Origin: a bacterium
GTDB lineage: Bacteria; Ratteibacteria; UBA8468; B48-G9; JAFGKM01
Direction: 5' to 3'
NCBI GenBank assembly: GCA_026414725.1
Contig: JAOAIL010000007.1
Location: 1 to 57,826 of the forward strand
DNA length: 57,826 bases
In this document: one piece after another, positions 28,043-55,735 of the stretch
Numbering within the stretch: the stretch's first letter is position 1
Layout of the letters: each line of letters opens with the position of its first letter
The notes under the pieces: generated by a model
Told to the model about the DNA's origin: nothing
The model's input: only the letters and a program-made list of their open reading frames with translations
Database searches by the model: none
Translations under genes and position numbers: made by a program

Positions 28043-28140
28043 TAATTCGTACGGAAATATAAAAATAACTCTTTAAATCATTTCCCTTTTCTTTGAGGGG
28101 AGAGTAGGATGGTGAGGATGAGTCCTTTCCTGTACTTTCC
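28043..28140 (-). repeat. Intergenic hairpin repeat, copy B
   Basis: Read on the minus strand: GGAAAGTACAGGAAAGGACT, then CATCCTCACC, CTCTCCCCTCAAAG, AAGGGAAATGATTTAAAG, and TTATTTTTATATTTCCGTACGAA, ending at TTGACA. The same order of blocks occurs in the copies at 46350-46511 and 55303-55735. Orientation is towards the zinc-ribbon gene. Confidence 0.7.
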
Positions 28141-28146
28141 ATCCTT

Positions 28147-28173
28147 TTGTCTTTACTTATAATATATTATAAT
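28147..28173 (+). promoter_or_regulatory. Putative promoter of the GGDEF gene, leaderless arrangement
   Basis: Perfect -10 TATAAT (28168-28173) sits 6 nt before the ATG at 28180. The best -35 candidate is TTGTCT (28147-28152) at a short 15-nt spacing. No Shine-Dalgarno precedes the ATG. Confidence 0.5.
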
Positions 28174-28179
28174 AAACGT

Positions 28180-30924
28180 ATGAAGAAAAGAGATGATATT
28201 TCTTCAATAGTAAAGAAGATAATTCCGAGAAATATACTTTCAGGACGTCTTTTATATTTTATAATACCTATAATCCTCACAATTATTATAATCAGTTCTA
28301 CAAGTTATCTTTTGAATCTATTTGTTTCCAGGGAGGATGAACGTGTAAGGAAAGAACTTATAGATAAAGCGAAAGATGTGGTTGTTATGCTTAATCCTGA
28401 AAGGGTAAGAAAACTTACCTTCACTCCTTCTGATATTAACCTTCCAGAGTATAGAAGATTGCATAACCAACTGGTATGTATAGCCAAATTTAAAGAGATT
28501 GGTTTTGGTAAGGTATATACAATAAAGATGAAGCCAGATGGATTTTATTTTGGTCCTGAAGGATATGAACCTGATGACCCTCTTGCTTCTCCTCCAGGGA
28601 CGAAATATGAAAAAGCACCAGCAGAGATTGAAAAAGTATTTATAGATAAAATACCTATAACAGTAGGTCCTTATACAGATGAATATGGAAGTTTTATATC
28701 TGCCTTTGTCCCTTTTATAGACCCACTTACACAGGATGTTCTTATGGTAGTAGGTATTGATACTGAAGTAAATATCTGGAAGGATAGATTATCTGCTGTT
28801 AAAAAGGTTCCACTTATTGTATGCTGGGCTTTACTTTTGATAGTTTATACAGGAACATTTCTTTTATGGCAGAGGCAGAGGATGACTACGGCGAAGAAAT
28901 GGAAGATGAGGTTTGTAGAGTCAGGTATTACTTTATGTATAGGTTTAATTTTAACTCTCCTGATTGCCTATAATGTTTACATTAATGAAATAAATATTAA
29001 GACAGATGAGTTTTTCAGATTAGGAAGAGTTGTTGCATCTCATATAAAGGTAAATTTTGTAAAGGTAAGAGAAAGAATATATGTAATAAACAATTTTTTT
29101 GCTTCAAGTGAATATGTAAGTAAGGATGAGTTTGAGAGATTTTGTATTGCTTTGATGGAGACAGATAATTTTATATCTTCCATAGGATTTGTCTCCATTG
29201 TACCTGCCGATGACATTCAGAAGCATATAATAAAACAAAAATCCAGCGGTATAAATAACTATAATATTTTCCAGATAACAAATGATAATAAAAAAATAAA
29301 TGTAAAAAAAGATGTGTATTATCCTATAGATTATCTTGTATCTAATAATAACAGAGAGGTATTATCTATTGGATTTGATATAAGTTCTATTCCTGAAGCA
29401 TATAATGCGATTAAGGAAACTTTGTCTACCGGGCTTCCTACTTCCACTGTCCCTATTATTTCTCCTGTTTTCCCAGGGTATGGAAGTATATTGATTTTTA
29501 GCAAGGTTGCATCTCACAAACAGGAAGGACTTATTGTAACGGAAGTAAGATTAAGTTCTGCTATTTCTTCAGGTATGGAATTAATAACTGATAATATAGG
29601 AATTGATGTTTATCATCTTTCAATGGATAATATAAATAAGGAGCATATATTTTCTGTTGATTATAGACGAAAAGGGAAAACAGATAAAAATAACAGGTTC
29701 CATATTTCACTTCCTTTATTTTTCTTCGGAAAGGTATATTTTTTGAAGATTTCAGGAGAAAATCTATTAGACACAGATGCTTTAAATAATTGGTCAGTCA
29801 TATTAACTGCAGGATTGTTACTGACATTGATTATGTCTCTGGTTATCTATTATTTAACCACAAAACAGATTGTTTTAGAAAGAGAAGTATTTCTCAGAAC
29901 AGAGGATTTAAGGAGGCAGATACAGTTTGAAAAATTTGTAGCAGAAATATCTTCTATGTTATTTAAAATAACACATACGGACGCACAATATCGTATTACT
30001 TTAGTATTAAAGATGTTGGGGGAGTTTGTAGATGTGGATAGGGCATATATAAACTTACTATCTGAGGATAGTACTACTGTTTCATTAGTATATGAATGGT
30101 GCAGAGAAGGTGTAAAGTCACAGATGCCTTTCTTTCAACAGATTCCAGTAGATATGTTCCCCACTTTAAAAAAGTATCTATGGAATAACTTAATTATTGA
30201 AATACCGGATATAAAAGATGTAGTTATAGATAAAGATATGACTGAAGTAGAAAGAAATGAACTTAAAAGAGAAGGAGTAACTGGTATGCTGGCTATCCCA
30301 CTGGTATGGGAGAATAGAACAATAGGATTTATGGGATTTGATACAGTGAACAGAAAAAAAGAGTGGGGTGAGACCTGTCATACACTTCTAAAAGTTATTG
30401 CAGGACAGATTACAGCACTTATTATGAAACTGAAAGCGGAAGATAGAATCTGGTATCTAAGCATTCATGACACGCTTACAGGTCTTTATAACCGAGCATA
30501 TTTAGAAGAAGAGATGGAACGGCTGGATACCGAGAGACAGTTGCCTTTAAGTATGATAATGGTGGACCTCAATAATCTAAAAAAGATGAATGATACATAT
30601 GGACATATAGCAGGTGATGAAATGTTAAAAAAGGTAGCCGATATTTTAAAAATCTCCTGTAGGAAAGAAGATATTGTTGCCCGCTGGGGAGGAGATGAAT
30701 TCGTTATATTTCTACCCCAGACAGATGTAAATACAGTTATAAGTATATGTAATCGGATAATTGAAAATTGTAAAGAGATTTATGTGAAAGGAGAAAAGAT
30801 ATCAATAGCAATAGGTTGTTCTACTAAAGAGAACATAGAAAAAGATTTAATGACGGTGTTGAATGAAGCAGAAGAAAAGATGTATAAACATAAAGCAATT
30901 GTAAAAGGAAATCTAAATAGATAA
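28180..30924 (+). CDS. Membrane diguanylate cyclase with CHASE and GAF domains
   Basis: 914 aa from the ATG at 28180 (the frame continues 11 codons upstream to a TTG inside the promoter). Order: N-terminal membrane helix (about 20-45), a periplasmic sensor region, membrane helices near 215-265, a CHASE-like domain (about 275-540, with NNFFASSEYVSKDEFERF), another helix, a GAF domain (about 590-745) and a GGDEF domain. The active-site GGDEF is intact (about 836-840) and RKED five residues before it is a canonical inhibitory I-site. It should make c-di-GMP in response to an extracellular ligand. Confidence 0.92.
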   Translation: MKKRDDISSIVKKIIPRNILSGRLLYFIIPIILTIIIISSTSYLLNLFVSREDERVRKELIDKAKDVVVMLNPERVRKLTFTPSDINLPEYRRLHNQLVCIAKFKEIGFGKVYTIKMKPDGFYFGPEGYEPDDPLASPPGTKYEKAPAEIEKVFIDKIPITVGPYTDEYGSFISAFVPFIDPLTQDVLMVVGIDTEVNIWKDRLSAVKKVPLIVCWALLLIVYTGTFLLWQRQRMTTAKKWKMRFVESGITLCIGLILTLLIAYNVYINEINIKTDEFFRLGRVVASHIKVNFVKVRERIYVINNFFASSEYVSKDEFERFCIALMETDNFISSIGFVSIVPADDIQKHIIKQKSSGINNYNIFQITNDNKKINVKKDVYYPIDYLVSNNNREVLSIGFDISSIPEAYNAIKETLSTGLPTSTVPIISPVFPGYGSILIFSKVASHKQEGLIVTEVRLSSAISSGMELITDNIGIDVYHLSMDNINKEHIFSVDYRRKGKTDKNNRFHISLPLFFFGKVYFLKISGENLLDTDALNNWSVILTAGLLLTLIMSLVIYYLTTKQIVLEREVFLRTEDLRRQIQFEKFVAEISSMLFKITHTDAQYRITLVLKMLGEFVDVDRAYINLLSEDSTTVSLVYEWCREGVKSQMPFFQQIPVDMFPTLKKYLWNNLIIEIPDIKDVVIDKDMTEVERNELKREGVTGMLAIPLVWENRTIGFMGFDTVNRKKEWGETCHTLLKVIAGQITALIMKLKAEDRIWYLSIHDTLTGLYNRAYLEEEMERLDTERQLPLSMIMVDLNNLKKMNDTYGHIAGDEMLKKVADILKISCRKEDIVARWGGDEFVIFLPQTDVNTVISICNRIIENCKEIYVKGEKISIAIGCSTKENIEKDLMTVLNEAEEKMYKHKAIVKGNLNR

Positions 30925-31329
30925 TTTTTTCAAGGATGATTTTCTGATATAGGTTGACTCTATTATTGATTTTATACCGCCACGTGGATTAAATTCTCCT
31001 TTAATTTTTAACCAATTGGGTTTGCATGCTTTTATAATATCCTGTTTAATCCGGTTTACAGCATTCTCATAAAATATACCTAAATTTCTGAAACTTTGAA
31101 TATATGTCTTTAATGACTTCAGTTCTAATACCAGTTTATCCGGTTCATACTCAATTGTAAGAGTTCCAAAATCTGGTTGTCCTGTTTTAGGACATAGCGA
31201 GGTATATTCAGGAATGATGATGGTTATTGTATATTTATTAAATTGGTTTCTGAAACATTCAATATCAGGGAGTTTTACATCAAGTCCTGCTTTTTCAAAT
31301 TTTTTATATTCACTTTTTATCTTTTTCAT
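30913..31329 (-). CDS. queF: NADPH-dependent preQ0 (7-cyano-7-deazaguanine) reductase
   Basis: 138 aa single-domain (type I) QueF. The motif EYTSLCPKTGQPDFG provides the nucleophile C46 and the acid D53, seven residues apart as in the Bacillus subtilis enzyme. It reduces preQ0 to preQ1 in queuosine biosynthesis. No queC, queD or queE is in the window. The 3' end overlaps the convergent GGDEF gene by 12 nt. Confidence 0.93.
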   Translation of the reverse strand: MKKIKSEYKKFEKAGLDVKLPDIECFRNQFNKYTITIIIPEYTSLCPKTGQPDFGTLTIEYEPDKLVLELKSLKTYIQSFRNLGIFYENAVNRIKQDIIKACKPNWLKIKGEFNPRGGIKSIIESTYIRKSSLKKLSI

Positions 31330-31330
31330 T

Positions 31331-31603
31331 TTAAAATGTTATTTCAAAAGAACTGAATGTTCCTGTATATGCTTTTTCTATTTCTTCTATATTTGTTATA
31401 TTCCTGCCTAAATATCCTTCCTTCAGTTTTTTCAGAAATGTTTGTATTTCTTCTTTGCTACCCTCTGCTACTATTTCAACCTTTCCGTTAGAAAGATTTT
31501 TTACCCATCCAGTTACACCTGTTTTTGTAGCAATATCCTTCGTATAGAATCTAAACCCAACTCCCTGTACCTTGCCATCTATTATAATATGAAGTCGTTT
31601 CAT
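31331..31603 (-). CDS. acyP: Acylphosphatase
   Basis: 90 aa, full length. The catalytic Arg is in GKVQGVGFRFYTK and the Asn in GWVKNLSNGKVE. It hydrolyses acyl phosphates such as 1,3-bisphosphoglycerate. It is followed by queF 1 nt later. Upstream lies the groEL terminator, only 10 nt before the ATG, and the region before the ATG is weak in Shine-Dalgarno character (TTCTTTTAA). Confidence 0.92.
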   Translation of the reverse strand: MKRLHIIIDGKVQGVGFRFYTKDIATKTGVTGWVKNLSNGKVEIVAEGSKEEIQTFLKKLKEGYLGRNITNIEEIEKAYTGTFSSFEITF

Positions 31604-31613
31604 TTAAAAGAAA

Positions 31614-31643
31614 TAGACCCCGCCGTAGATAAAGCGGGGTCTA
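31614..31643 (-). terminator. Rho-independent terminator after groEL
   Basis: A perfect 10-bp stem, TAGACCCCGC / GCGGGGTCTA, with a 10-nt loop, followed on the minus strand by TTTCTTTT. It is the only strong intrinsic terminator I see in the window. It lies 16 nt after the groEL stop and 10 nt before the acylphosphatase start. Confidence 0.8.
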
Positions 31644-31658
31644 TTTTTATGTATTTAA

Positions 31659-33296
<1,638 letters not shown>

Positions 33297-33599
33297 TTAT
33301 TTGTCTTCAATAACAGCAAGGACATCCTCTTCTCTCAAGATCATATATTCCTTGCCTTCAATAGTTATCTCTGTCCCGGCATATTTACCATACAGAACTT
33401 TATCTCCGACCTTCACTTCCATCGGGATTAATTTCCCGCTTTCGTCGGTTTTTCCTTTACCGACCGCTACAACCTTTCCTTCCTGTGGTTTTTCTTTTGC
33501 TGTGTCAGGAAGAATAATACCTCCTTTGGTCTTTTCTTCTGCCTCAAGTGGTTCAACTACTATCCTGTCGCCGAGCGGTCTTAACTTCATCTTTCCCAT
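33297..33599 (-). CDS. groES: Co-chaperonin GroES
   Basis: 100 aa. [27 protein letters not shown] includes the mobile loop that docks on Gro[16 protein letters not shown] follows. The start at 33599 is supported by AAGGAGG 7 nt upstream. The promoter region has a consensus sigma-70 promoter and no CIRCE inverted repeat, so HrcA control is not evident. Confidence 0.97.
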
Positions 33600-33667
33600 A
33601 CATCCCTCCTTGTTAAATTAAATAAATTGGTAATTTTTGTGGTTTTTTTTGGCTTTTCAAAATATAA

Positions 33668-33695
33668 ATTATACCTTTTAAATAAAAACTGTCAA
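33668..33695 (-). promoter_or_regulatory. Promoter of groES-groEL
   Basis: Minus strand TTGACA (33695-33690), 16-nt spacer, TATAAT (33673-33668), with a ~60-nt leader. No TTAGCACTC-N9-GAGTGCTAA element is found around it. Confidence 0.75.
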
Positions 33696-33748
33696 GAGAT
33701 ATAGAATTATTTTGAAGATTGATATAAAATATAAAAAAGGGGGCTATT

Positions 33749-34144
33749 ATGGAAAAAGAAACGAAAAGATACAGGGTGCGTCCGAAAAGATATCTGTGTT
33801 TTTCCCCTGAAGAAGCAGTAAATACAGGAATTAGTGTTGGAGAAGAAACAGTTGAGGAATTGTTATTGATAAAGGGACTGGTATTTGGGAGTTTACTGTA
33901 TGCTTCTATAAGAGAGATTGATGAGTACGAACTTATGAAGATGTCTGTTGAGGAAAGGAAAGAACGGCTTTTTGATTCCAGAAAAGAAGCAGTGAAGTAT
34001 ATTTCAGAGAACAATACTGATGGGACACTCTATCTTTATGGTGTAAAGGAAATAAGGAGTGTTCCGAGAGAAATGATAGGAGAGTTTGAAAGAGGTTCAT
34101 CAGGTATCATAGATGAATTACAAAAGTTCAATAAGAGGGATTAG
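33749..34144 (+). CDS. Hypothetical protein, 131 aa
   Basis: Not recognised. Small charged soluble protein (N-terminal RYRVRPKRYLCFSPEEAVN, a central helix around VEELLLIKGLVFG, and a Glu/Arg-rich C-terminus). RBS-like GGGGG lies 6 nt before the ATG. It stands alone between the groES promoter region and tRNA-Gly. Confidence 0.65.
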   Translation: MEKETKRYRVRPKRYLCFSPEEAVNTGISVGEETVEELLLIKGLVFGSLLYASIREIDEYELMKMSVEERKERLFDSRKEAVKYISENNTDGTLYLYGVKEIRSVPREMIGEFERGSSGIIDELQKFNKRD

Positions 34145-34148
34145 TTGG

Positions 34149-34177
34149 TTGACACGGATATAACCAGAAGGTAAAAT
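34149..34177 (+). promoter_or_regulatory. Promoter of tRNA-Gly
   Basis: TTGACA (34149-34154), 17-nt spacer, TAAAAT (34172-34177), 9 nt before the tRNA 5' end. Confidence 0.75.
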
Positions 34178-34186
34178 TTTTTGTAT

Positions 34187-34257
34187 GCGGGATTAACTCA
34201 GGGGTAGAGTACGAGCTTCCCAAGCTCGGAGCGCGGGTTCGAATCCCGTATCCCGCT
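34187..34257 (+). tRNA. tRNA-Gly (CCC)
   Basis: 71 nt: acceptor GCGGGAT/ATCCCGC, D-arm ACTC/GAGT, anticodon stem CGAGC/GCTCG with loop TTCCCAA (CCC, reads GGG), and T-loop TTCGAAT. No encoded CCA. The transcript would begin only a few nt before the mature 5' end. Confidence 0.95.
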
Positions 34258-34273
34258 CTTTGATGGATAAAAT

Positions 34274-34732
34274 TCAGTTTTTATTTTTTAATGTAGCTAT
34301 CAATTTCTGCATCCTTCTTTGAGAAGGAAGATATCTTATCCCAATGGAAAGGTTTAATATAATAAAAACAACCATCCATGAGATATTCCCACAGATAAGG
34401 AAGCCCATAAAACCTGTTATGGAAATGATATTTAATAGCCATATAGTAAAGAGCACATAAAGAAGATAGAAATGGGTAGTATCTTTCACTGCTGAAGATA
34501 ACCGTTTACTGAAGAAATCAGATATTCCATCACAGAAGAAAAATATGCCGGCTCCTGTAGCAAAAAGAACATACTGGATAAATTTTGCCGGTCCTTCCTC
34601 ATAATTTTCAACTATTCCTGTAAAACCATTTTTATGAAGTATAACTCCCACTATTAATAGTAAGAAAGGGGTGATGAAAGAGATAATGCCCGATATCTTT
34701 ATATTCCTCCACAAAAGATTATTTTTCTCCAT
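34274..34732 (-). CDS. Hypothetical membrane protein, 152 aa
   Basis: Not recognised. Four predicted membrane helices (about 13-33, 53-70, 90-108, 112-132) and a basic C-terminal tail (PSQRRMQKLIATLKNKN). It overlaps the upstream small gene by 14 nt and is probably translated from the same message. Confidence 0.65.
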   Translation of the reverse strand: MEKNNLLWRNIKISGIISFITPFLLLIVGVILHKNGFTGIVENYEEGPAKFIQYVLFATGAGIFFFCDGISDFFSKRLSSAVKDTTHFYLLYVLFTIWLLNIISITGFMGFLICGNISWMVVFIILNLSIGIRYLPSQRRMQKLIATLKNKN

Positions 34733-34913
34733 TTAGTCCTTTTTTCTCTCCAAAATAGTCCATTGACATCAATTCCTGACGGATTGCTGATATACGGGTT
34801 TTAATCAGTAAAGTAGAATAAATACTTTTCATATTTTCAAGTCCATATTTTTGCATAATCTCATAGACACATTCATTTGCCTTTTCAAATTGTATGATTC
34901 TCTTGCTACCCAT
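34719..34913 (-). CDS. Small hypothetical protein, 64 aa
   Basis: Basic, helical, no membrane segment. Supported as a gene by a weak RBS (AAGAGGG), a promoter 100 nt upstream and translational overlap with the following membrane protein gene. Family unknown. Confidence 0.5.
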   Translation of the reverse strand: MGSKRIIQFEKANECVYEIMQKYGLENMKSIYSTLLIKTRISAIRQELMSMDYFGEKKGLNGEK

Positions 34914-35014
34914 GCCCTCTTTTCAGGATGCAACTGTGAGTACTGTAGATTTCCATGAGGCAAAAAAATTATTCCTGTTTTTTAAATAACAATCCCTTCT
35001 TAAAGATACATAGT

Positions 35015-35042
35015 ATTTTATGTATTCATGATATTTTGTCAA
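35015..35042 (-). promoter_or_regulatory. Promoter of the two small hypothetical genes
   Basis: Minus strand TTGACA (35042-35037), 16-nt spacer, TAAAAT (35020-35015). It leaves a ~95-nt leader. The divergent tRNA-Arg promoter begins 9 nt away. Confidence 0.65.
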
Positions 35043-35050
35043 ATTTTATA

Positions 35051-35079
35051 TTGACGGCTGATGTTTCAAAAGTTAAAAT
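35051..35079 (+). promoter_or_regulatory. Promoter of tRNA-Arg(TCT) and possibly pyrE
   Basis: TTGACG (35051-35056), 17-nt spacer, TAAAAT (35074-35079). No terminator separates the tRNA from pyrE, so the unit may be tRNA-Arg-pyrE-tRNA-Arg. Confidence 0.7.
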
Positions 35080-35097
35080 AAGAGAAGAATATAAAAA

Positions 35098-35170
35098 GCG
35101 CCTGTAGCTCAATGGATAGAGCATCTGCCTTCTAAGCAGAGGGCTGCCTGTTCGAGTCAGGCCAGGCGCA
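35098..35170 (+). tRNA. tRNA-Arg (TCT)
   Basis: 73 nt: acceptor GCGCCTG/CAGGCGC, anticodon loop CTTCTAA (TCT, reads AGA), T-loop TTCGAGT, discriminator A, no encoded CCA. Confidence 0.95.
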
Positions 35171-35210
35171 CTACCAATCTTTGTAAATAAATCAAAAAGG
35201 AGATTATATT

Positions 35211-35798
35211 ATGACCTGCCAGAAAGAAAAAAGTTTAGGAGAAATGAAGGTTCGGCTTTTAAATCTTATAAAAGAAAGAGCGCTTTTTTTAGGTCCGAGG
35301 AAACTTGCATCCGGTAAAATGAGTAATTGTTATATTGATGGAAAACTGATTACATGTGACCCTGAGGGAATCTACCTTGTGTCAAAAATTATCCTTTCAA
35401 TGATAGAAAATGAAAAGATAGATGCAATAGGTGGTATGACAATGGGGGCAGACCCTATTTCAGCAGGTGTTGCTGTTTTAAGTTATATTGAAGGCAGACC
35501 TATCAAGGCATTTATAGTAAGAACTGCTCCTAAAGACCATGGGATGGGAAAACTTATAGAAGGGCATATCCAGAAGGGTTGGTCTGTAGTCATAGTTGAA
35601 GATGTTGTTACTACAGGTGGTTCTGCCTTAAAGGCAATCAAAGCAGTTGAAGAGGCAGGAGCAGTTGTTAAGAAAGTTATTGCCATAGTAGACCGTCTTG
35701 AAGGAGCAAAGGAATCACTTGCAGAGAAAAATATTCCCCTCCAATCAATCTTTACAAAAGATGATGTTGATTTCAGCAGTTTACTTTCTTCCAAATAA
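35211..35798 (+). CDS. pyrE: Orotate phosphoribosyltransferase
   Basis: 195 aa. PRPP-binding motif VVIVEDVVTTGGSALKAI and the N-terminal LASGKMSNCYIDGKL identify PyrE, which makes orotidine 5'-monophosphate from orotate and PRPP in pyrimidine synthesis. It is a short form lacking extra domains. RBS AAGGAG sits 9 nt before the ATG. It lies between two tRNA-Arg genes on the same strand. Confidence 0.95.
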   Translation: MTCQKEKSLGEMKVRLLNLIKERALFLGPRKLASGKMSNCYIDGKLITCDPEGIYLVSKIILSMIENEKIDAIGGMTMGADPISAGVAVLSYIEGRPIKAFIVRTAPKDHGMGKLIEGHIQKGWSVVIVEDVVTTGGSALKAIKAVEEAGAVVKKVIAIVDRLEGAKESLAEKNIPLQSIFTKDDVDFSSLLSSK

Positions 35799-35806
35799 TA
35801 TATTAT

Positions 35807-35880
35807 GCGCTTGTAGCTCAACTGGATAGAGCGTTGGCCTCCGGAGCCAGAGGTTGTGAGTTCAAATCTCACCAAGCGCA
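35807..35880 (+). tRNA. tRNA-Arg (CCG)
   Basis: 74 nt: acceptor GCGCTTG/CAAGCGC, anticodon loop CTCCGGA (CCG, reads CGG), T-loop TTCAAAT. No CCA encoded. It begins 8 nt after the pyrE stop, so it is probably processed from the pyrE transcript. Confidence 0.95.
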
Positions 35881-36061
35881 CACTTTATCCGATGGATATT
35901 TCATTTATTACCTTTGCTATTACAGAAAGTGGTTGTTATCTATTTTCAGAGTGTATTCTCATATATATAGTAAAAATAATCCTGCAAACTTTAAAATTGA
36001 TTTTTCAAAATGGTATGACAGATAGGAGTAAAAGGAAAGGTATAGGATATCCTTTATGTTT

Positions 36062-36089
36062 TTGTATTTTTTATAAAAATAAGTATAAT
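36062..36089 (+). promoter_or_regulatory. Putative promoter of tRNA-Lys
   Basis: TATAAT at 36084-36089, 12 nt before the tRNA; the -35 (TTGTAT at 36062-36067, 16-nt spacer) is weak. The preceding 36 kb gap (35881-36061) shows nothing else. Confidence 0.5.
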
Positions 36090-36101
36090 ATAGACCTATA
36101 T

Positions 36102-36173
36102 GGGCCGTTAGCTCAATGGCAGAGCAGGGCACTCTTAATGCCAAGGTTGGAGGTTCAAGTCCTCCACGGCCTA
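36102..36173 (+). tRNA. tRNA-Lys (CTT)
   Basis: 72 nt: acceptor GGGCCGT/ACGGCCT (first pair G-U), anticodon loop CTCTTAA (CTT, reads AAG), T-loop TTCAAGT, discriminator A. The anticodon stem has a G-A at its top pair. No encoded CCA. A run of Ts follows and could help end transcription. Confidence 0.93.
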
Positions 36174-36177
36174 TTTT

Positions 36178-39084: not shown

Positions 39085-39425
39085 TTTCCCCTTTCTTCAT
39101 CCCTCTTCCTTGATGGGAGATGGGCAGGGTGAGGGTGAAACCGTCGTTTCACTTTCCACCCCCACCTATATCCTCCCCCCTCATATGGGGAGGATTTGCT
39201 TTACTCCCTCTCCCTTGAGGGGAGAGGGGTGCTATCTTTGTTAATTCTCCCCTCCCTCAGAGGGGAGGGGATTAAGGGGAGGGTGAGACCTTTGCTACTC
39301 TTTTCTCCCTCATCCTTTCCTTCTCCCCCCATAGGGAGAAGGAATACTACCTTCCACCCCTACCTATCATCCTCCCCCCTCGTATGGGGAGGAACTGTCT
39401 TTTTTTCTCTCACACGTTGCTTAAT
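39085..39425 (-). repeat. Intergenic hairpin repeat array, copy D
   Basis: This whole interval between the znuA-like gene and the pseudopilin gene is hairpins. Inverted repeats: 39171-39194 (TCCTCCCC...GGGGAGGA), 39206-39228 (CCTCTCCC...GGGAGAGG), 39247-39270 (CCCTCC...GGAGGGG), 39319-39342 (CCTTCTCC...GGAGAAGG) and 39370-39393 (TCCTCCCC...GGGGAGGA). The first and last are flanked by the same CTTTCCACCCC(C/T)ACCTAT block, so units are reiterated. Read on the minus strand the block order matches copies A-C, pointing to the znuA-like gene. No protein gene is seen here. Confidence 0.75.
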
Positions 39426-45533: not shown

Positions 45534-46154
45534 ATGAAAGGGATAAAAGGATTTACTTTGATAGAGTTGCTTGTAGTGGTGGCAATCATTGCGATTTTAG
45601 CAGCAATGTTGCTACCTGCACTTTCTCAGGCAAGGGAAAGGGCAAGAGCGGCAAAGTGTATAAGTAACTTAAAACAGATTGGGGTTGCTTATCTGATGTA
45701 TTGTGATGACTATGATGGCTGGGGACCGCGCATCAAGGACACGGACCCGGTAGCGGGTTATCATTGGGGATGGTTCTTAGTTAATTATCAATACCTTTCT
45801 AACCGAGAATGTTTGCTTTGCCCAAGTGTAGCAGGTAGAAGGAAGTTTATCAATTATAGTGAGACCTATGGTTATTTATTAGATTGGGGAGAAGGGCATC
45901 CGTTGGGTTATCCATGCGTCAAAAGGATGAGTAAAACTCCGAGCAATGCCGGAATTATATTTGATTCAGCCAAGAATTCTTTAACAGGTATTATGAATGC
46001 ATTTGTTTACAGTTATTATAATTCTAGTGACCTATGTCTCGTGGCTAAACGTCATAATGGAATAGCAAATGCTTTATTTTTGGATGGTCATGTGGAGGGA
46101 TGTAATAGTACCAGGTTAAGAACTTTAGAAAAACAGGTAACTGCCAGTTGGTAA
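45534..46154 (+). CDS. Pseudopilin, H-X9-DG family, paralogue 1 of a duplicated pair
   Basis: 206 aa. Leader [29 protein letters not shown] and C-terminal [16 protein letters not shown] (H-X9-DG). The first ~70 residues and the segment around [25 protein letters not shown] are almost identical to the gene at 47779, including at DNA level, while the middle (about 70-120) and parts near residue 160 differ. The gene-to-gene similarity points to a recent duplication or conversion. RBS AAGGAGG. Confidence 0.88.
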
Positions 46155-46349
46155 TTAAAAGGAAAAGTATATATAGAGTAGATGTTCTTTTAATTATTTC
46201 ACAAAGATTATCAGTCTAATTTTTTCCTCTTTATTTTCCTTATTTAATCTCTCCCTTACTATTGAGAAAATCCAGTACAGTCCATATTTTATTCCAGTGC
46301 AATATATAGAATGGAAAATTTGACATACATAGAATAGATATTATAGATA

Positions 46350-46511
46350 GGGTAGCAGAAGTAATGAGGTTATAGGATTTCTTCCCATATTATAGAGGTG
46401 CTGGTGGGGTTGGAGAGTAAATGAAAGGTCTCATCCTCACCTTTATCCTCTTTCCTCAAAGGAGAGGGAAATGGTTTAAAGTATTATTTATCTCCTTATC
46501 TGTATGAGTAC
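46350..46511 (+). repeat. Intergenic hairpin repeat, copy A (short)
   Basis: Begins GGTAGCAGAAGTAATGAGG and runs through CTTCCCATAT, GGAGAGTAAATGAAAGGTCT, CATCCTCACCTTTATCCTC, TTTCCTCAAAGGAGAGG (hairpin), GGTTTAAAGTATTATTTATC and CTGTATGAGTAC, ending exactly at the TTGACA of the regulator gene promoter. The remainder of the 46155-46349 gap shows no other feature. Confidence 0.75.
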
Positions 46512-46540
46512 TTGACAAAAATTTTTCTGTATGATATAAT
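46512..46540 (+). promoter_or_regulatory. Promoter of the GntR/LacI regulator gene
   Basis: TTGACA (46512-46517), 17-nt spacer, TATAAT (46535-46540): a perfect consensus. The leader is ~25 nt with a weak AGGA before the ATG. The -35 starts at the first base after repeat copy A. Confidence 0.8.
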
Positions 46541-46571
46541 ACAATTAGAAAAATATAACAATAGGAACAAA

Positions 46572-47741: not shown

Positions 47742-47778
47742 ATAAAATTGAAATAAAGGGAGAAAGGAGGAAAATAAG

Positions 47779-48387
47779 ATGGAAAGGAGAAAAGGATTTA
47801 CATTAATAGAGTTGTTAGTAGTGGTGGCAATTATTGCGATTTTAGCAGCAATGTTGCTACCGGCGCTATCCCAGGCGAGGGAAAGGGCAAGAGCGGCAAA
47901 GTGTATAAGTAATTTAAAACAGATTGGGGTTGCTTATTTAATGTACTGTGATGACTATGATGGCTGGGGACCGCTTGTTAATGATAGCGTTACCTGGTAT
48001 AAACATTGGGGATGGCAGTTAGTTAATAGTAATTACATTAACGGAACTAATAGAGATTGTTTAATTTGTCCCAGTGGACCAAGAAAAAAATTCGTAAATT
48101 ATGACGAGACCTATGGTTTTTTAACAGCATGGTCATGGGGTCATCCATGCGTCAAAAGGATGAGTAGAACTCCGAGCAATGCTGGAATTATATTTGATTC
48201 AGCCAGAGGTTCTTTAACTGGTAGCATGTGCAAATATGTCTACACTGGTTCTAATTCTGGCGATCCAAATCAGGTAGCTAAACGTCATAATGGAATAGCG
48301 AATGTTTTATTTTTGGATGGTCATGTAGAAGGATGTAATAGTGAAAGATTAAAAACTCTGGAAAGACCGGTAAGTTATAGTTTTTAA
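47779..48387 (+). CDS. Pseudopilin, H-X9-DG family, paralogue 2
   Basis: 202 aa. [28 protein letters not shown] leader, H-X9-DG near the end ([16 protein letters not shown]). It begins 37 nt after the regulator stop, with GAAAGGAGG as RBS, and is followed by the secreted glycosidase after 27 nt, so the three look like one transcript. Compared with the gene at 45534, both ends are nearly identical and the centre differs. Confidence 0.88.
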
Positions 48388-48414
48388 TTTTTAATTAAAG
48401 AGAGGAAGTGTTAT

Positions 48415-50343
48415 ATGAATAAAAAGGGGAGGTATTGGTTTATACTGCTGGCATGTTTTTTCACTATATCAAATTTCTGTTTCGGTGCAGGTTGGTGTGA
48501 TAAGGATGGTAAACTAATTTTTCTGCGAGGGGTCGGGTTTTCACCCTGGCATAAAACAGAAGGATGGAACCGTTCAGAAGAAACAATCAAACTTGATATA
48601 AAGTTTCTGAAAGATGTTCATGCCAATGCATTGAGGGTCTGGGGACCTGCCTCTCCAGAGGGGGTTAAAGCAAATCTTTCTAATGGTTTTTATACTCTCC
48701 CAACTGTCCATTGTGAAGGAGGGATGTCAGCGGAATTCTCTAACGGGAGCAAACACAGTATTGCATTCAGTGACCCAGAGACACAGCAGAAGTTTGCACA
48801 GCAGTGCGAAGAGTATGCAGAGAAAATAAAGGGTATTCAAGGTGTACCAGCGGTGCTTTTGGGAAATGAATATACAGGTGTTGGGTACAATTCTGCCACC
48901 AAGAATTATGAATATGTTGGTTTTGAAGCACCAACACAGGAGAGATTCCGTACATGGCTTGCTAAAAGATTCAAGACGATAGAATCTCTAAATAAATATT
49001 GCGGGACAAACTTTAAGGACTTTAAAGAGGTTACGCCATTAGCAACCCGACGGCTCAGATATGAGTTCTGGTTATTCCAGAATAGAAGTTTTGAAGAATT
49101 TATTAAAGCTGGCCATGATGCTATAAAAAGAGTGGATTCCGAGAGATTGACCTCTTATGGTAAGTTGATGGGCAATCGCTGGGACCCTTGTACTGAGGAT
49201 GCACAATTATCCTTTCTGGATTTTCCCGGAGACCAGATTTACTGGCACTGGATAGATGACTGGGCGAAATTCAACAGGTTTGTCAATGACTTTATTGCGA
49301 CAGGGAAGGGGAAGCCAGTCCTTATAACCGAGACAGGGATATCTACCTTTAATAAAAATGAAGATTATGCAGCCCGATTATTAAAACAGAATATCTGGAA
49401 TGTATTACTTCATCCTGAAGTTGCAGGTATCTTTGTTTTTGAGTATTGTGATGAGTGGTATAAAGGGTGTAAGCCAGATGAACTGGACCATCAAGAAGAT
49501 GGATGGGGACTTGTAACTGCTGACAGGATTCCAAAGAAGTCATACTATGTATTAAAAGAGATTTATGAATTCATAGAGAAAATGAACGATTTCTTTGTCA
49601 ATCGGCAGTCCACACCTGTTGTAGCAGTTTCTAACCAATCTCTGGACTTTCTGGTTGCAGACAAGGGTACAGGGCTACCTCTTGAGATTGATAAGGTACT
49701 CTATTCAAAGGGTGTTTCATTCAGGCATATAACCCCTGATGATGTGTATGATTTAAGTCCAGAAAAGACACCTCGGATAATCTTCTGTGATGAATATTTC
49801 AACTGCGAGCCCGATGGTTCACGTTCTGCTCTCACTTCTTTTTTAAACTACCTGGAGAAGGGTGGTAAGGTTCTTTATCTGTGTACAAATCCCTGGCAAC
49901 TTCCATATGGAAAAGCAAATATCCCTGAACCATTGCGTTTTGATACCAGTAAAACAGAACTTACAGAAGTAAACTATGGTAAGGGAACAATCTATTTCCT
50001 GCCAAAAGACAAATTCAACTTAAAGGAACTTTCTGACCTTTTATTACAATTTCTTAAGGAAACCGGTGCTCCTGAGGTTCTCAATATACAAAATGTTGAA
50101 CCGGTAGAAAAACAGTTTGAGGTATTCTGCAGGATGTTTAAGAGTAAGGACAGGCAGATAATTTTAATAGTTAATTCAAGTGATAAAATAATAAACAACT
50201 TCCAGATAGATGTGTTAGGAGTAAAATGGGCAAAACTACTTTTTGCAGATGGTGCTACACTCAGTTCCTCACAGCAGGAGAACGTCCTGCATCTGAACTT
50301 ACAGAATATTGATACATATGCCCTCGTGGAGGTTGGAAACTAG
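48415..50343 (+). CDS. Secreted glycoside hydrolase (GH42/GH2-clan A-like)
   Basis: 642 aa. Signal peptide about 1-24 (ends NFCFG). TIM barrel about 30-400 starting FLRGVGFSPWHKTEGWNRSEE; candidate acid/base E152 in LLGNEYTG and nucleophile E306 in LITETGIS, at the strand-4 and strand-7 positions of clan GH-A. About 420-560 (DEYFNCEPDGSRSALTSFLNYLEKGG) resembles the glutamine-amidotransferase-like trimerisation domain of GH42 beta-galactosidases, then a short beta-rich tail. Exported; specificity unknown. Partner of the pseudopilin and regulator upstream. Confidence 0.82.
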   Translation: MNKKGRYWFILLACFFTISNFCFGAGWCDKDGKLIFLRGVGFSPWHKTEGWNRSEETIKLDIKFLKDVHANALRVWGPASPEGVKANLSNGFYTLPTVHCEGGMSAEFSNGSKHSIAFSDPETQQKFAQQCEEYAEKIKGIQGVPAVLLGNEYTGVGYNSATKNYEYVGFEAPTQERFRTWLAKRFKTIESLNKYCGTNFKDFKEVTPLATRRLRYEFWLFQNRSFEEFIKAGHDAIKRVDSERLTSYGKLMGNRWDPCTEDAQLSFLDFPGDQIYWHWIDDWAKFNRFVNDFIATGKGKPVLITETGISTFNKNEDYAARLLKQNIWNVLLHPEVAGIFVFEYCDEWYKGCKPDELDHQEDGWGLVTADRIPKKSYYVLKEIYEFIEKMNDFFVNRQSTPVVAVSNQSLDFLVADKGTGLPLEIDKVLYSKGVSFRHITPDDVYDLSPEKTPRIIFCDEYFNCEPDGSRSALTSFLNYLEKGGKVLYLCTNPWQLPYGKANIPEPLRFDTSKTELTEVNYGKGTIYFLPKDKFNLKELSDLLLQFLKETGAPEVLNIQNVEPVEKQFEVFCRMFKSKDRQIILIVNSSDKIINNFQIDVLGVKWAKLLFADGATLSSSQQENVLHLNLQNIDTYALVEVGN

Positions 50344-50477
50344 GAATACTGAAAAAATTTACGATGAATAAATGATGATATCTCGGGAGGGGAAACATTA
50401 TACCACTTTAAAGAAATATCTCTCTTTACACATAAAATAATCCGATTTACCAATACAGTATTTAATAAGCAATGGGT

Positions 50478-50485
50478 AAACGTTT
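50478..50485. promoter_or_regulatory. AAACGTTT palindrome, possible LacI-family operator
   Basis: An 8-bp perfect palindrome with the central CG typical of LacI-family operators, directly before a weak promoter-like TTGAGT (50485-50490) and TATATA (50510-50515; long 19-nt spacer). It lies 52 nt before the M14-like gene. Regulator unknown. Confidence 0.3.
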
Positions 50486-50536
50486 TGAGTTTGTTAAAAG
50501 GGATGATACTATATAAAAAAGAACAGGTATTATTAG

Positions 50537-51538
50537 ATGAAGATGAGTAAACCAGAGAAGATAAACAGAGATATTTTTAGATGGGCAAGGGACTATACTG
50601 ACATTGTAAGGATAGATGAAGAAACCCAGTTTACAGGGGATAAGGTATATGCAATAACTGTAGAGAAAAGGAATAATCTTCCAAAAAGAAATCTTTTAGT
50701 TGCAGTTCCTCATGCCCATGAGCCAGCAGGGACAGTAGCAATTATGGAGTTTCTAAGTGAACTGATTACAGGGAAAGATGCAGAAGGGAATGTATCTCAA
50801 CTTCCGAGAGAAGAAATCCTGAAGAATATCCGGCTTACCTGTATTCCCATAGGCAATCCGTTTGGCAGGAAGAACTCACCTGTGGAGTTCTGGGATGGAA
50901 CAAGATTTTCTTTAGAAGAGTTCATTTATATTATGGTTGGTAGATTGATGGGTAATCCTCCACCTAATATAGTTAATGAGTTCTGGCATAACCATCCTGT
51001 ATTCAACCAGGAGGTGGAAAGATTAGAAGAGATTGGGATTGTATGGGAGAAACTTTCAGAGAAATGGTATGGAGAACCACATTTTTATAAGGGATGTACC
51101 TGGTGGAAGCTGGTTGAGAGGATATCTGATGAGTTTCAATACAGTAAAGATGACTTGTTTTTAGAACTTCATCAGACAGAGATGTATCCCGATAAGGACT
51201 GTATGGTAATCCACCCGAGAGAGGCATGGATACCTCCTGATGCAATTGCAAGAGCGGATGAGATAGAAGAGAAGATAAACAGAAGATGGAGGGAGGTTGG
51301 TGGGAGTCCATATCAGGATAAAGAGTATTACACACGGCTGGTGGAAAGGGATAAGGATTTAAACAATCCTAAAGAAAGGAGGAAGATTTCCATTGACTGG
51401 CTTACGATGAAAACAGGGACTCCATGTATTACTATAGAAGTTCAGATGCATAATCCGAATACACCAGCACAGAAACAGATACTACTTGAAAAGGTTGCTA
51501 TTGAAGTATGTGTAGAACTTTTACTTAAAGGGGGATAG
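50537..51538 (+). CDS. M14-like zinc carboxypeptidase / deacylase
   Basis: 333 aa with the M14 layout: zinc ligands H59 and E62 in PHAHEPAG (HxxE), third ligand H212 in FLELHQTEM, and catalytic-base candidate E301 in CITIEVQMH. Basic substrate-binding residues such as R in IGNPFGRKNS are also visible. Family members are metallocarboxypeptidases and succinylglutamate-desuccinylase/aspartoacylase-type amidases. No signal peptide, so cytoplasmic. It is 3 nt upstream of the methyltransferase gene, in an operon. Confidence 0.8.
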   Translation: MKMSKPEKINRDIFRWARDYTDIVRIDEETQFTGDKVYAITVEKRNNLPKRNLLVAVPHAHEPAGTVAIMEFLSELITGKDAEGNVSQLPREEILKNIRLTCIPIGNPFGRKNSPVEFWDGTRFSLEEFIYIMVGRLMGNPPPNIVNEFWHNHPVFNQEVERLEEIGIVWEKLSEKWYGEPHFYKGCTWWKLVERISDEFQYSKDDLFLELHQTEMYPDKDCMVIHPREAWIPPDAIARADEIEEKINRRWREVGGSPYQDKEYYTRLVERDKDLNNPKERRKISIDWLTMKTGTPCITIEVQMHNPNTPAQKQILLEKVAIEVCVELLLKGG

Positions 51539-51541
51539 AAA

Positions 51542-53008
51542 ATGGGCTTTAGATGGCTTGTTCCGAAATGTGCAGAGTTTGATAGAGAGGATATAGAAAA
51601 GATTGTGGATGCATCAATACGTATTTTAAGAGAAGTGCCGTGGACAATAGATGGAACAGTAGAGTTTATGGAGTACTTGAGAAATTTTGGGTTTCAGATA
51701 GAAGGTAATAAAGTAAGGTTCACTCCAGAAGTGATAGAAAAGACATTAGCCAGGATTAAAGAAGAGAAGCAGAAGAATCTTTCCAGAGGTGGAGATAAGT
51801 ATCCAGTAGCACCGCAGGAAATAAGATATGCAGCATCAGGACAGGCACTATGGGCACATGATATAGAAAAAGATACAATAAGACCTGCAACAAAGGATGA
51901 CCTGGCTGACTTTTCTCGTGTAGTCAATACCTATCCCGGACTTGATAGAACCCATCCTACCTTTATTCCTACAGATGCACCACTTAAAACGAGGGAATTG
52001 CATGCATATATAACGATTATGCTTAATAGTGATAAACCGTATCGTGTCTCCTGTTATTCTCCTGAAATACTGGATTATTTTGTAGAGGCGAACACCATAT
52101 ATTATGGTTCAAGAGAGGAAGGGATTAAAAAATTACTTTTACCCTGTAAGGTCTGGATAAACACACCTTTTATGATATCCAGAGATGGTATAGAAGCGGC
52201 GATGAAGTTGAGAGCACTTACAGGTAGAACTCTGGATTATACAGCCATGCCTGTCTGTGGTGTTGCAACCCCTGTTACCTATGATGGCGCTTTAACACTG
52301 ATAACCGCTGAGGTTATAGGAGTGAATGCCATAGGACTTGCTGTGGATAGTGTTTTACCGCGGTGGATGACAGGAATAATGGGTTTTGATATGAAAGGGG
52401 GGATATTTAGAGAATGGAGCCCCCAGACACTAATTTTGAATACTGCTGGTGCTCAGATTTCTTCTTATCTCTTTGGTACATCTCCTTTTGGGATGTCCAC
52501 CGGAAATCTTTTTTATACCAGCGCTAAAAAACCAGGACTGCAGAGTGCTATGGAAAAAGCATTTGGTATGGCTATAGTATTTGCTTCAGGGGGCAGGAAT
52601 TTTGGTGCATTAGGGACACTGGCAGACGGGGATGTGGGAAGTATTTTACAGTTGGTTATAGATATGGAACTTATATCAGCAATTAAAGAATTTGTGAAGG
52701 GGTTTGATATAAGTGATGAGACAATAGGAGAAGATTTGATTAAAGAGATTTCAGTAAGAGGTGCATATTTCCTTGACTCAATGCATACATTTCAATACTA
52801 TAGAAGATATGGATGGATTTCAGAACTTATGGATACCCAGTTTCCATCAGCGTGGATAAACAATCCTAAGGAGATGCTGGATAATGCGAGAGAAAAGGCG
52901 AGAGAACTCATAAAGAACGCACCTAACAGGTGTCCACTTGATGAGAATAAAAAGAAAGAACTTTTAAATCTTCTTAAGATAGCGGATGAAAAATTAGGAG
53001 AAAGATAA
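51542..53008 (+). CDS. MttB-superfamily methyltransferase (non-pyrrolysine)
   Basis: 488 aa TIM-barrel protein of the trimethylamine methyltransferase family. The N-terminal segment (REDIEKIVDASIRILREV ... GTVEFMEYLRNFGF ... VRFTPEVIEKTLARI) is typical of MttB relatives. The frame contains no in-frame TAG, so the pyrrolysine of true MttB is absent; such homologues demethylate quaternary amines (glycine betaine, carnitine, proline betaine). No corrinoid protein or reactivase gene is adjacent. It lies between two peptidase-like genes, hinting at a methylated amide or amino-acid conjugate as substrate. Confidence 0.82.
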   Translation: MGFRWLVPKCAEFDREDIEKIVDASIRILREVPWTIDGTVEFMEYLRNFGFQIEGNKVRFTPEVIEKTLARIKEEKQKNLSRGGDKYPVAPQEIRYAASGQALWAHDIEKDTIRPATKDDLADFSRVVNTYPGLDRTHPTFIPTDAPLKTRELHAYITIMLNSDKPYRVSCYSPEILDYFVEANTIYYGSREEGIKKLLLPCKVWINTPFMISRDGIEAAMKLRALTGRTLDYTAMPVCGVATPVTYDGALTLITAEVIGVNAIGLAVDSVLPRWMTGIMGFDMKGGIFREWSPQTLILNTAGAQISSYLFGTSPFGMSTGNLFYTSAKKPGLQSAMEKAFGMAIVFASGGRNFGALGTLADGDVGSILQLVIDMELISAIKEFVKGFDISDETIGEDLIKEISVRGAYFLDSMHTFQYYRRYGWISELMDTQFPSAWINNPKEMLDNAREKARELIKNAPNRCPLDENKKKELLNLLKIADEKLGER

Positions 53009-53017
53009 GGATTAGAG

Positions 53018-54697
53018 ATGGGAAATATAAGAAAGAGTATAGAGTATATATGTAAACAGATTGGACACAGAGCACCTGGTAGTAAAAATGAATATGAATG
53101 TGCAGGATATCTTAAAGAACGATTAGAGAAAATGGGTCTGGATGTATGTATGGAGGAGTTTGATTCACCATCTCATATAGCCACCTCATCCTTTCTTATA
53201 TCAGTAGAAGACAATAAGAAATTTACATCCTTACCTGTCCAGTTTTCTCCTGTAGGGAAAGTAGAAGGAGAACTTGTATTTTTAGGGAGTGCGGATACTC
53301 CTTTACCTGAAACAGAGCAGATAAAAGGTAGGATAGGACTACTTCTATCTGAGACAGATAGATTTACAAGACACAGAACAGTTATCTCACTTGAGGAAAG
53401 AGGACTTATAGGACTTGTTGTGGTCTCTTCCCATTTTGGCACAATAGACACAAAAGTAGTTAGGGAGCCAGATATTAAAATGCCTGTAGTAGCAGTAAGT
53501 ATGGAAGATGGATATGAATTAAAGAGATACGAAGGGAAGAAGTTTATAATGAGTGTTGAAGGGGAGAAAGAAAAAAGGAATAAGTCCCAGAATGTTGTGG
53601 TAAAGATAGAAGGAAAGAGTAAGGAATGGTTTGTTATAGGTGCGCACTATGACAGTACTCCATTCATTGAAGGGGCACTGGATAACGCCTCCGGGACTGC
53701 AGTGGTATTAGAGGTTGCCCGCATACTCTCACAAAAACGTATGAATAATACAGTTTATATCTTATTTACAGGGAGCAAGGAGTATGGAGGTAATGACTGT
53801 ACAGGCAGAGGCGCACAGAATTTTTTCAAAAGGCGAACTGCTGAGATAAAACACTGTACTGGATATATTGATGTAGATGGTGTGGGAGATATAACAGGAA
53901 TACCAACACTTATTATAGACGGAAACGAAAGGTTTAAGAGTTTTGTTAGAGGGATAACATTAAGCCAGAGATATCAGATTAAAAAGAGAGAGTCCCCTGG
54001 TGGAGATAATGGAGTTGCATATCAGTACGGCGTTCCGTATATCTGGTTTACAGATGCAATTTTATTTGGAAAAAACTATCTCCATACCACCTATGACAGA
54101 GTAGAACTTATTGATTTTGATAAACTTGAAGTTTATGTCAATGATGTTGTTAAAGTTGCTGAAGAGATGGACAGGCAAGGGTGTTTTTTCCCATATTTGG
54201 AAGATAGAGGGATTACTATCAGACAGGCACGGTTTAGTGATATACCCTCTATTCTTGAGATTACCCGCCTTGCCTTTGAAGGATACAGTTTAGGAAAGAT
54301 ACAGGAAGAGTTTTATGGAGAGAAATTGGGTGGTAAAGAGTGGTATGAATATAAAAACATGGAGGTTGAAGGATACTTTAAAGGGAATATCTACTGCTGT
54401 ATAGTTGCAGAGATAGAAGGCAAGATAGTGGGGTATGCGACATATTATAAGGATGGAGAAAGAGGGATTGGTACTATCGGGAACAATGCTGTTCATCCTT
54501 CATATCAGGGAAGGGGTATAGGTACACTTTTGCAGAAAGAGATAAAAAGACGGATGGAAGAAGATGGATTTAAAAGGTTCAGTGTTTCAACACTTTCTAT
54601 TGATATACCAGCACAAAAGATGTATGAGAAGATGGGGTATAAAAAGGTGGTAGATACAATCCACTATATGAAAAAGCAAGATAAAGATGAAAAATAG
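53018..54697 (+). CDS. M28 aminopeptidase fused to GNAT N-acetyltransferase
   Basis: 559 aa. Residues 1-~390 are an M28 peptidase: GAHYDST (about 208-214) and DNASG (about 222-226) carry metal ligands, YIDVDGVGD follows, and LHTTYDRVELID (about 352-363) gives the last His. The usual catalytic Glu-Glu reads FTGSKEYGG here, i.e. Lys-Glu. Residues ~397-559 are a GNAT domain (ITIRQARFSDIPSILEITRLAF; acetyl-CoA motif YQGRGIGTLLQ near 497). No signal peptide. The fusion suggests release of an amino acid or amine and acetylation by the same protein. It starts 9 nt after the MttB-like gene. Confidence 0.85.
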   Translation: MGNIRKSIEYICKQIGHRAPGSKNEYECAGYLKERLEKMGLDVCMEEFDSPSHIATSSFLISVEDNKKFTSLPVQFSPVGKVEGELVFLGSADTPLPETEQIKGRIGLLLSETDRFTRHRTVISLEERGLIGLVVVSSHFGTIDTKVVREPDIKMPVVAVSMEDGYELKRYEGKKFIMSVEGEKEKRNKSQNVVVKIEGKSKEWFVIGAHYDSTPFIEGALDNASGTAVVLEVARILSQKRMNNTVYILFTGSKEYGGNDCTGRGAQNFFKRRTAEIKHCTGYIDVDGVGDITGIPTLIIDGNERFKSFVRGITLSQRYQIKKRESPGGDNGVAYQYGVPYIWFTDAILFGKNYLHTTYDRVELIDFDKLEVYVNDVVKVAEEMDRQGCFFPYLEDRGITIRQARFSDIPSILEITRLAFEGYSLGKIQEEFYGEKLGGKEWYEYKNMEVEGYFKGNIYCCIVAEIEGKIVGYATYYKDGERGIGTIGNNAVHPSYQGRGIGTLLQKEIKRRMEEDGFKRFSVSTLSIDIPAQKMYEKMGYKKVVDTIHYMKKQDKDEK

Positions 54698-55255
54698 ATA
54701 GTGGATAAAAAATTAATGTTTTGGAAGAACTGGTGCAGCAATATAAAGAAGATATAGAAGAGGCAAAGAAGAAGTTTAATGTAGATGTTCAGTTAAATAG
54801 TATCATCTGATGGTTTGATAAACCTAAGAGATGACAACTACTTTATAGATTATGGTTTGATATAGGCCCTTCAGCAAAAGGATTATGTTTGGACCCTCCT
54901 ATAATAATATCTTCTGAGATATCACCGAGGATTGTGTCAATACTTTAAGAAACAAAGGATAGATTAAACTTCAAAGTTATTTAACCAGAAGGACTGAAAC
55001 AGATATTAGAGTTTGATACAACATTATATGAAAGATGCGGGAAGAACTGGAGGGGATTATATAAAGATGGACCATCTGAAAATAACTTCAGGATATTTGA
55101 AGATGAATTAAGAATCAATTGTATACAGGTGGCTGGAATTTTGTTGAGAAGGTGAAGGCAAGGTTGAGAGAGGTATAAAAGATTGCAGGAATGTGTGGTG
55201 GCTTTAATATTCGCGATAGGGTAAGAAGACATATGTAGGGACTTCTCCAGAGGTG
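54698..55255 (+). pseudogene. Decayed coding remnant, possibly uroporphyrinogen-decarboxylase-family
   Basis: No intact frame, but fragments read as protein in the plus direction and are broken by stops and frameshifts. About 54721-54811: EELVQQYKEDIEEAKKKFN, then a stop. About 54982-55157: PEGLKQILEFDTTLYERCG, WRGLYKDGPS and RIFEDELRI, then a stop. About 55147-55237: FVEKVKARLREV, then KIAGMCGGFNIRDRV. The order (…LYERCGKNWRGL…EDELRI…VKARLRE…GG) vaguely matches URO-D-like methyltransferases that partner MttB proteins. Identity is uncertain; decay is clear. Confidence 0.4.
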
Positions 55256-55302
55256 CTTATAGAACTTGATTTGAGATGCATGGGAACACCTGCATTATAA
55301 AT

Positions 55303-55735
55303 AAGGTAGCAGAAGTAAGGATATAGAAATTCCTTCCCATATGAGCGGGGAAAGTAAAGGGGAAGGTCTCACCCTCACCCTGCCCCTCTCCCCTCAAGGG
55401 AGAGGAGATAAAGCAATCCTCCCCATATGAGGGGGAGGATACTGGTGCGACGGGTAAGGAGCACCGTATAGCACAGAGGGCGAGATGGTGAGCCCGTTGA
55501 CTGAAGCCCGTCAGGGCAAGAACAGGTGGAGATAGAGAAGAATGAAAGGTTTCACCCTCCCTCTGGCTCTCTCCCCTCAAGGGCGAGGGGAAAAGAGCAA
55601 TTCCTCCTCATATGAGGGGGGAGGAATTAGGTGGGGGTGGAAAGTAAAGAAAAGGGTTCACACTCACCTTTGTCCTACCCATTCGAGGTAGAGGATAATA
55701 ATTTAAACTATTATCTATCTACTCTATTCGTATGA
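55303..55735 (+). repeat. Intergenic hairpin repeat array, copy C (long)
   Basis: Starts GGTAGCAGAAGTAAGGATAT like copy A. Contains hairpins at 55384-55405 (CCTCTCCCC...GGGAGAGG), 55418-55440 (TCCTCCCC...GGGGGAGGA) and 55601-55624 (TTCCTCCTC...GGGGGGAGGAA), two CACCCTC blocks, a GC-rich insertion (55444-55520), and ends AATTTAAACTATTATCTATC then TATTCGTATGATTAC, the same right end as copies A and B. The regulator promoter follows about 30 nt later. The open frame on the opposite strand within it is not credible. Confidence 0.75.

Follow-up and report, generated by a model that had tools for sequence, protein, structure and literature searches.

The repeats closest to those described here are the BoxC/PIT/TM_ECO elements, whose units have the consensus CCCTCNCCC-N3-6-GGGNGAGGG-N3-GGGNGAGGG with free loops in the class II purine-motif order, lie between genes, form inverted pairs of two types, are tied to local rearrangement and have no known transposase (Holder et al. 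2015, PMC4666352). An oligonucleotide of the TM motif gave a triplex in vitro by NMR, DMS footprinting in E. coli gave no triplex in vivo, and work on the E. coli motif revealed no function, whether as promoter, terminator or otherwise (PMC4666352). Also comparable are the REP/BIME/REPIN elements with their RAYT transposases (PMC3116915, PMC3733652), which are short intergenic palindromes of alternating orientation in mosaic clusters, and MITEs, which are short, dispersed and non-coding.

A repeat family in a 57,826-nt window of a genome from the Ratteibacteria (the whole stretch analysed, on contig JAOAIL010000007.1) shares the consensus and the other listed features of BoxC/PIT/TM_ECO and is a diversified mosaic variant of that known repeat kind. 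Unlike those elements, it combines several sequence-distinct classes in mosaic arrays in which stem and third strand covary, and its composite arrays are oriented with genes, whereas the E. coli elements are reported to lack strand bias (a reported property rather than part of their definition). The host also differs, belonging to a small phylum (35 genomes examined) and not to the Proteobacteria. We consider it probable that the family is made up of intrastrand-triplex repeats of the BoxC/PIT/TM type in mosaic arrays, that is, of short non-coding DNA units in intergenic spacers.

Re-reading of the sequence confirmed the positions and strands of four repeat copies reported in a preliminary description of the window (A, C and D as listed in Table 1; B at 39085-39425). 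The same ordered blocks had been described for all four, but in copy B this holds only for the CACCCTCACC-hairpin blocks, and the TTTAAAG...GTATGA right end is missing from it. This right end is common to A, C and D and to a further copy that lies outside the window (C9:24606-24778, here called C9), which is 86% identical to window positions 46345-46520. An alignment of A, C, C9 and D shows shared ends and no clear inverted repeat. The C/C9 pair resembles MITEs in keeping both ends, but no clear terminal inverted repeats or target duplications were seen in the family, and the number and order of its units vary. The hairpin of copy A no longer folds better than shuffled sequences, and the decay of copies A and C was counted against the triplex explanation.

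Table 1. Repeat copies, constituent modules and predicted promoters in the window
Feature	Position	Strand	Remarks
Copy A	28043..28140	-	decayed m1 unit plus the right end of C, D and C9 (alignment)
Zinc-ribbon gene promoter, TTGACA-17-TATTAT	28014..28042	-	native, as judged from relatives, where it is found without the repeat
Copy B composite array	39089..39394	-	in gene direction m2, m3, m4 (inverted), m1 hairpin, m2, m1 (inverted); operon spacer, empty in G003
m1 module (BoxC/TM type), copy B	39101..39135	+	2 mismatches to TM_ECO consensus
m2 module TCCTCCCC-ATATGAGG-GGGGAGGA-TAT-AGGTGGGGG, copy B	39159..39194	-	
m4 module TCCCCTCCC-TCAGAG-GGGAGGGGA-TTA-AGGGGAGGG, copy B	39248..39283	+	
m3 module CCTTCTCCC-TATGGG-GGGAGAAGG-AAA-GGATGAGGG, copy B	39307..39342	-	
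m2 module, copy B	39358..39393	-	third strand partly decayed
Copy C	46350..46511	+	decayed m1 (46434-46468, minus); both ends common to C9:24606-24778
GntR/LacI-type regulator promoter, TTGACA-17-TATAAT	46512..46540	+	sequence common to C9
Copy D composite array	55303..55735	+	m1-, m2+, second repeat block, m1-, m2+, decayed unit, right end
m1 module TCCTCTCCC-TTGA-GGGGAGAGGG-GCA-GGGTGAGGG, copy D	55372..55406	-	1 mismatch to TM_ECO consensus
m1 module, copy D	55555..55589	-	2 mismatches
m2 module, copy D	55602..55637	+	
LacI gene promoter, TTGACA-16-TATAAT	55765..55792	+	kept in G002 ortholog beside a different m1 array

Other repeated sequences were seen as well. A second repeat block (TGGTGCGACGGGTAAGGAGCACC...GAAGCCCGTCAGGGC...) occurs at window positions 55440-55530, at C6:62388-62618 and at C34:465-618 with about 84-87% identity, and stands in place of the third strand in some hairpins. 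The GntR/LacI-type regulator is flanked by two DUF1559-type pseudopilin genes (45534-46154 and 47779-48387) whose DNA is 81-90% identical over long stretches, so that they probably represent a recent duplication. Copies C and C9 share their promoter too (window 46512-46545; L083 4770-4810) and precede different GntR-type regulators (GntR/LacI-type and GntR/FCD), which suggests that the pair may be a copied upstream region.

The family extends far beyond the window. The 433-nt sequence of copy D matched 60 places in the 1.52-Mb genome (G000) at E<=1e-3, far beyond chance, and about 54 islands were counted within the stretches read, which were those around copies; 10 of the 54 islands lie at contig ends, and the island counts are lower bounds. 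Only two of the 54 overlap a called gene. By spacer type there are 29 tandem, 11 divergent and 2 convergent islands, a placement that looks like background. On its purine strand the core unit reads CCCTCTCCC-TTGA-GGGGAGAGGG-N3-GGGTGAGGG, which is the BoxC/PIT/TM_ECO consensus. Searching 281 kb around copies for this consensus, with a second loop of 2-4 nt allowed, gave 15 exact matches and 33 with at most two mismatches; three Markov-shuffled sets gave a single match, with six mismatches, and nothing comparable to the real ones. Exact m1 units are present in 11 of the 35 genomes of the phylum, in which a backward-read m1 control pattern had no match. E. coli chromosomes also carry matches to the core unit, at 80-95% identity. 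A search of Rfam returned no family at the repeats, and searches of plasmids with m5-type units returned weak or partial matches only.

At least four classes of hairpin make up the mosaic islands. Besides m1, these are m2 (TCCTCCCC/GGGGAGGA/AGGTGGGG), m3 (CCTTCTCCC/GGGAGAAGG/GGATGAGGG) and m4 (TCCCCTCCC/GGGAGGGGA/AGGGGAGGG). Relatives add more: the stem/third-strand pairs AAAGGAGGG/GGG(A/T)GGATT, AAAGAGGGG/GGGGAGATT, AAGGAAGG/GGATGGAT and AAAGGGGGG/GGGGGGATT occur in G004 and G008, and the pairs AAAGGGGGA/AGGGGGATT, AGGAGGGGA/AGGGGAGGT and AAGGGAGA/AGAGGGAT in a genome from another family of the order (G025). Two pairs already seen, GGGAGAAGG/GGATGAGGG and GGGAGAGGA/AGGTGAGGG, recur in a genome outside the phylum (G039). 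A backward-read pattern used as control again found none. In the m1 array upstream of the LacI ortholog of G002 (L224, G002:C122), one hairpin is followed by tandem repeats of the purine arm and third strand (GGGAGAGGGTATGGGTGAGGGG...), which looks like amplification of the third-strand part.

Many RNA structures were established through covariation. We took all purine hairpins with a stem of at least 8 from the fetched stretches of five genomes (G000, G001, G003, G004 and G008), blind to the sequence downstream. In the repeated hairpin classes one flank fits the stem in mirror register, with G opposite G and A or T opposite A, as in the stem/third-strand pairs GGGAGAGGG/GGGTGAGGG, GGGAGAAGG/GGATGAGGG, GGGGAGGA/AGGTGGGG, AAAGAGGGG/GGGGAGATT, AAAGGAGGG/GGG(A/T)GGATT and AAGGAAGG/GGATGGAT. 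Among 388 unique readings with asymmetric stems, 156 had a mirror-perfect third strand and 27 a direct-perfect one; when the downstream sequences were re-dealt, 26 ± 4.6 were mirror-perfect (maximum 40 over 200 deals), and because copies within a class are related the 156:26 contrast does not represent 156 independent events. In nine 9-nt classes whose third strands were picked by frequency alone, without regard to the stem, there were 0 mismatches in the mirror register and 27 in the direct register (permuted mean 22.3, minimum 3 in 5000), a class-level test that rests on about 7-12 classes partly related by descent. In leave-one-out counts the third-strand base opposite a stem A was A 255, T 240, G 5 and C 1 times, and that opposite a stem G was G 1265, A 37, T 3 and C 1 times. 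Stem and third strand thus follow the class II purine-motif triplet rule. The stretches surveyed had been found by similarity to m1 and m2, and the third strands of m3-m7 lay outside that query.

At the sequence level, this mirror fit across unrelated stem sequences is three-strand covariation, and a third strand that changes in step with its hairpin is expected if the triple helix itself is kept by evolution. The mirror register also means that the third strand is not simply a second copy of the purine arm that could re-pair with the pyrimidine arm. No prior report of stem/third-strand covariation was found in the literature searched, and Holder et al. do not mention it (PMC4666352).

We considered two other readings of the tail. 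One is that the units are hairpins of the REP/REPIN type, whose tail is kept by pairing with the tail of an inverted neighbour and not by a triplex. Unit orientation does alternate, m1 being opposite to m2 in 53 of 54 cases in five genomes, some tails have a complementary partner nearby, and the G002 unit at the site of copy B is one long hairpin. However, in one class after another the tail matches the stem of its own unit in mirror register, and 100 of 202 modules, many solitary units among them, have a third strand with no complementary partner within 120 nt, so that neighbour pairing cannot explain these. Other traits of REP/BIME/REPIN with RAYT differ as well: the GTAG or CGTC tag at the palindrome end is absent from the module consensus sequences, no Y1 transposase (RAYT) gene was found in G000, G003 or G004 (drafts 79-96% complete) although each has more than 30 repeat matches, and there were no modules near the Y1 genes at six loci examined in relatives. 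A RAYT/REP origin was rejected for lack of the transposase in the host, of the tag and of flanking modules, and the tail-pairing explanation is unlikely. The other reading, a quadruplex built from the G-tracts of purine arm and third strand, was raised as a possibility by Holder et al. (PMC4666352) and fits m1 (GGG-AGA-GGG-N3-GGG-TGA-GGG), but a quadruplex does not require the C-rich arm and predicts neither A or T opposite A at mirrored positions (A 255 and T 240 of 501) nor classes with GG tracts only, such as AAGGAAGG/GGATGGAT. The NMR signals of the E. coli motif were also those of a triplex (PMC4666352). We therefore regard quadruplex repeats as very improbable.

The preliminary description had also argued that the orientation of the copies is not due to chance, and this is borne out for an oriented, dispersed intergenic family. 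In co-directional gene pairs of four genomes, m2-containing islands follow the gene direction in 33 of 36 cases (33:3; two-sided binomial p = 2e-7), and by 16:1 in G000 alone, whereas islands without m2 are oriented 12:12. The orientation rule thus holds for composite, m2-containing arrays. Replication strand was rejected as the cause of this polarity, because polarity flips with gene direction inside single contigs (C7, C20 and C4). One island between divergent genes (L063, C5:3787-4269) consists of two halves, each polarised like its own adjacent gene.

The same description had proposed a mobile promoter-proximal or 5'-leader module, which would bring or tune the promoter of the next gene. 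In its favour, a TTGACA box lies at or close to the end of copies A, C, C9 and D, the promoter sequence is common to C and C9, and composite arrays are aligned with gene direction. In the window the association holds for three of the four copies, directly for A (TTGACA 28042-28037, TATTAT 28019-28014) and C (TTGACA 46512-46517, TATAAT 46535-46540) and after 30 nt for D, which ends at 55735 (TTGACA 55765-55770, TATAAT 55787-55792), but B has no promoter. All four copies lie 5' of a gene as described, but this location carries little weight, since any spacer between co-directional or divergent genes lies upstream of one gene or another. For 14 of the 27 co-directional islands in G000 the next start is within 60 bp, and for 13 the preceding stop is within 60 bp; half of the islands leave no room for a promoter.

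Comparison with relatives argues further against such a module. In G001, G003, G008 and G011 the ortholog of gene A is preceded by a TTGACA-type promoter in the matching position, with no repeat, and G002 keeps the promoter of gene D alongside a different m1 array; as judged from these orthologs, the promoters at A and D are native. No ortholog of gene C was found in the relatives searched. Copy B lies in an operon spacer; the corresponding G003 spacer is empty and shorter than 40 bp, and those of G001 and G002 contain other single units. At A and D about 6-8 nt separate the -10 box from the ATG, which would put the start site at about the ATG, so that the repeat, lying on the upstream side of the promoter, falls outside the leader. 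PIT elements likewise showed no promoter activity (PMC4666352). We thus abandon the module proposal as very unlikely.

In the promoter of the zinc-ribbon (CT398-like) gene (window 28005-28042) about 8 nt lie between the -10 box and the ATG, and the spacing is similar in the orthologs L212, L213, L214, L215 and L216; this suggests that a leaderless transcript is conserved, and the arrangement at the LacI gene at 55799 looks alike. The gene upstream of the zinc-ribbon gene is a divergent GGDEF gene here but not in relatives (window 28140-28180 versus L212, L213 and L214), and this different neighbour implies a rearrangement edge at repeat A.

A role at the RNA level, with intercistronic mRNA hairpins acting on stability or translation, might be expected from the many islands between close co-directional genes and from the orientation of the composite arrays. 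However, folding does not distinguish the sense from the antisense RNA (the sense folded better in 9 of 20 islands), stem G.U versus A.C pairs number 22:12, which is not significant, and purine-motif triplexes are stated not to form in RNA (PMC4666352). An oriented RNA element is therefore quite unlikely, and RNA-level function was rejected for lack of a sense/antisense difference. The triplex alone does not account for the polarity either.

In the intrastrand-triplex explanation, each unit runs from a pyrimidine arm through a loop to a purine arm and then, past a short loop, to a purine-rich third strand. The fold would arise in single-stranded DNA, either on the lagging-strand template or on a strand freed in repair or transcription; the two arms would pair, and the third strand would lie antiparallel in the groove (G.GC, A.AT or T.AT triplets), a step beyond the secondary-structure programs used here, which model the hairpin only. 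The folded DNA rather than its exact sequence would be what is recognised or kept, so that stem and third strand would change together and many sequence classes would arise. Spread probably occurs through a trans-acting factor other than RAYT, or through repair or recombination at the structure; no mobilising enzyme was identified. Empty or replaced repeat sites in relatives show turnover, which is consistent with the instability reported for these motifs (PMC4666352).

A stronger proposal, for and against which we hold the balance to be even, is that intrastrand triplex DNA is under selection. The keeping of third strands by compensatory mirror-register change would then be phylogenetic evidence for a fold used in vivo, probably by a structure-specific factor, and the polarity of composite arrays would be set by transcription.

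What appears to be new here is the three-strand covariation across classes, the polarity of composite arrays and the occurrence of the motif in a phylum where it is seemingly undescribed. The polarity relative to genes is a second constraint beside the fold, and since sense and antisense RNA fold alike we offer no mechanism for it. For intrastrand triplexes, folding in vitro is clear and in vivo probing in E. coli was negative (PMC4666352). Covariation on three DNA strands is independent evidence for a kept fold, and the natural classes m1-m7 are open to direct tests. If this evidence holds, it bears on whether intrastrand triplexes form and matter in cells.
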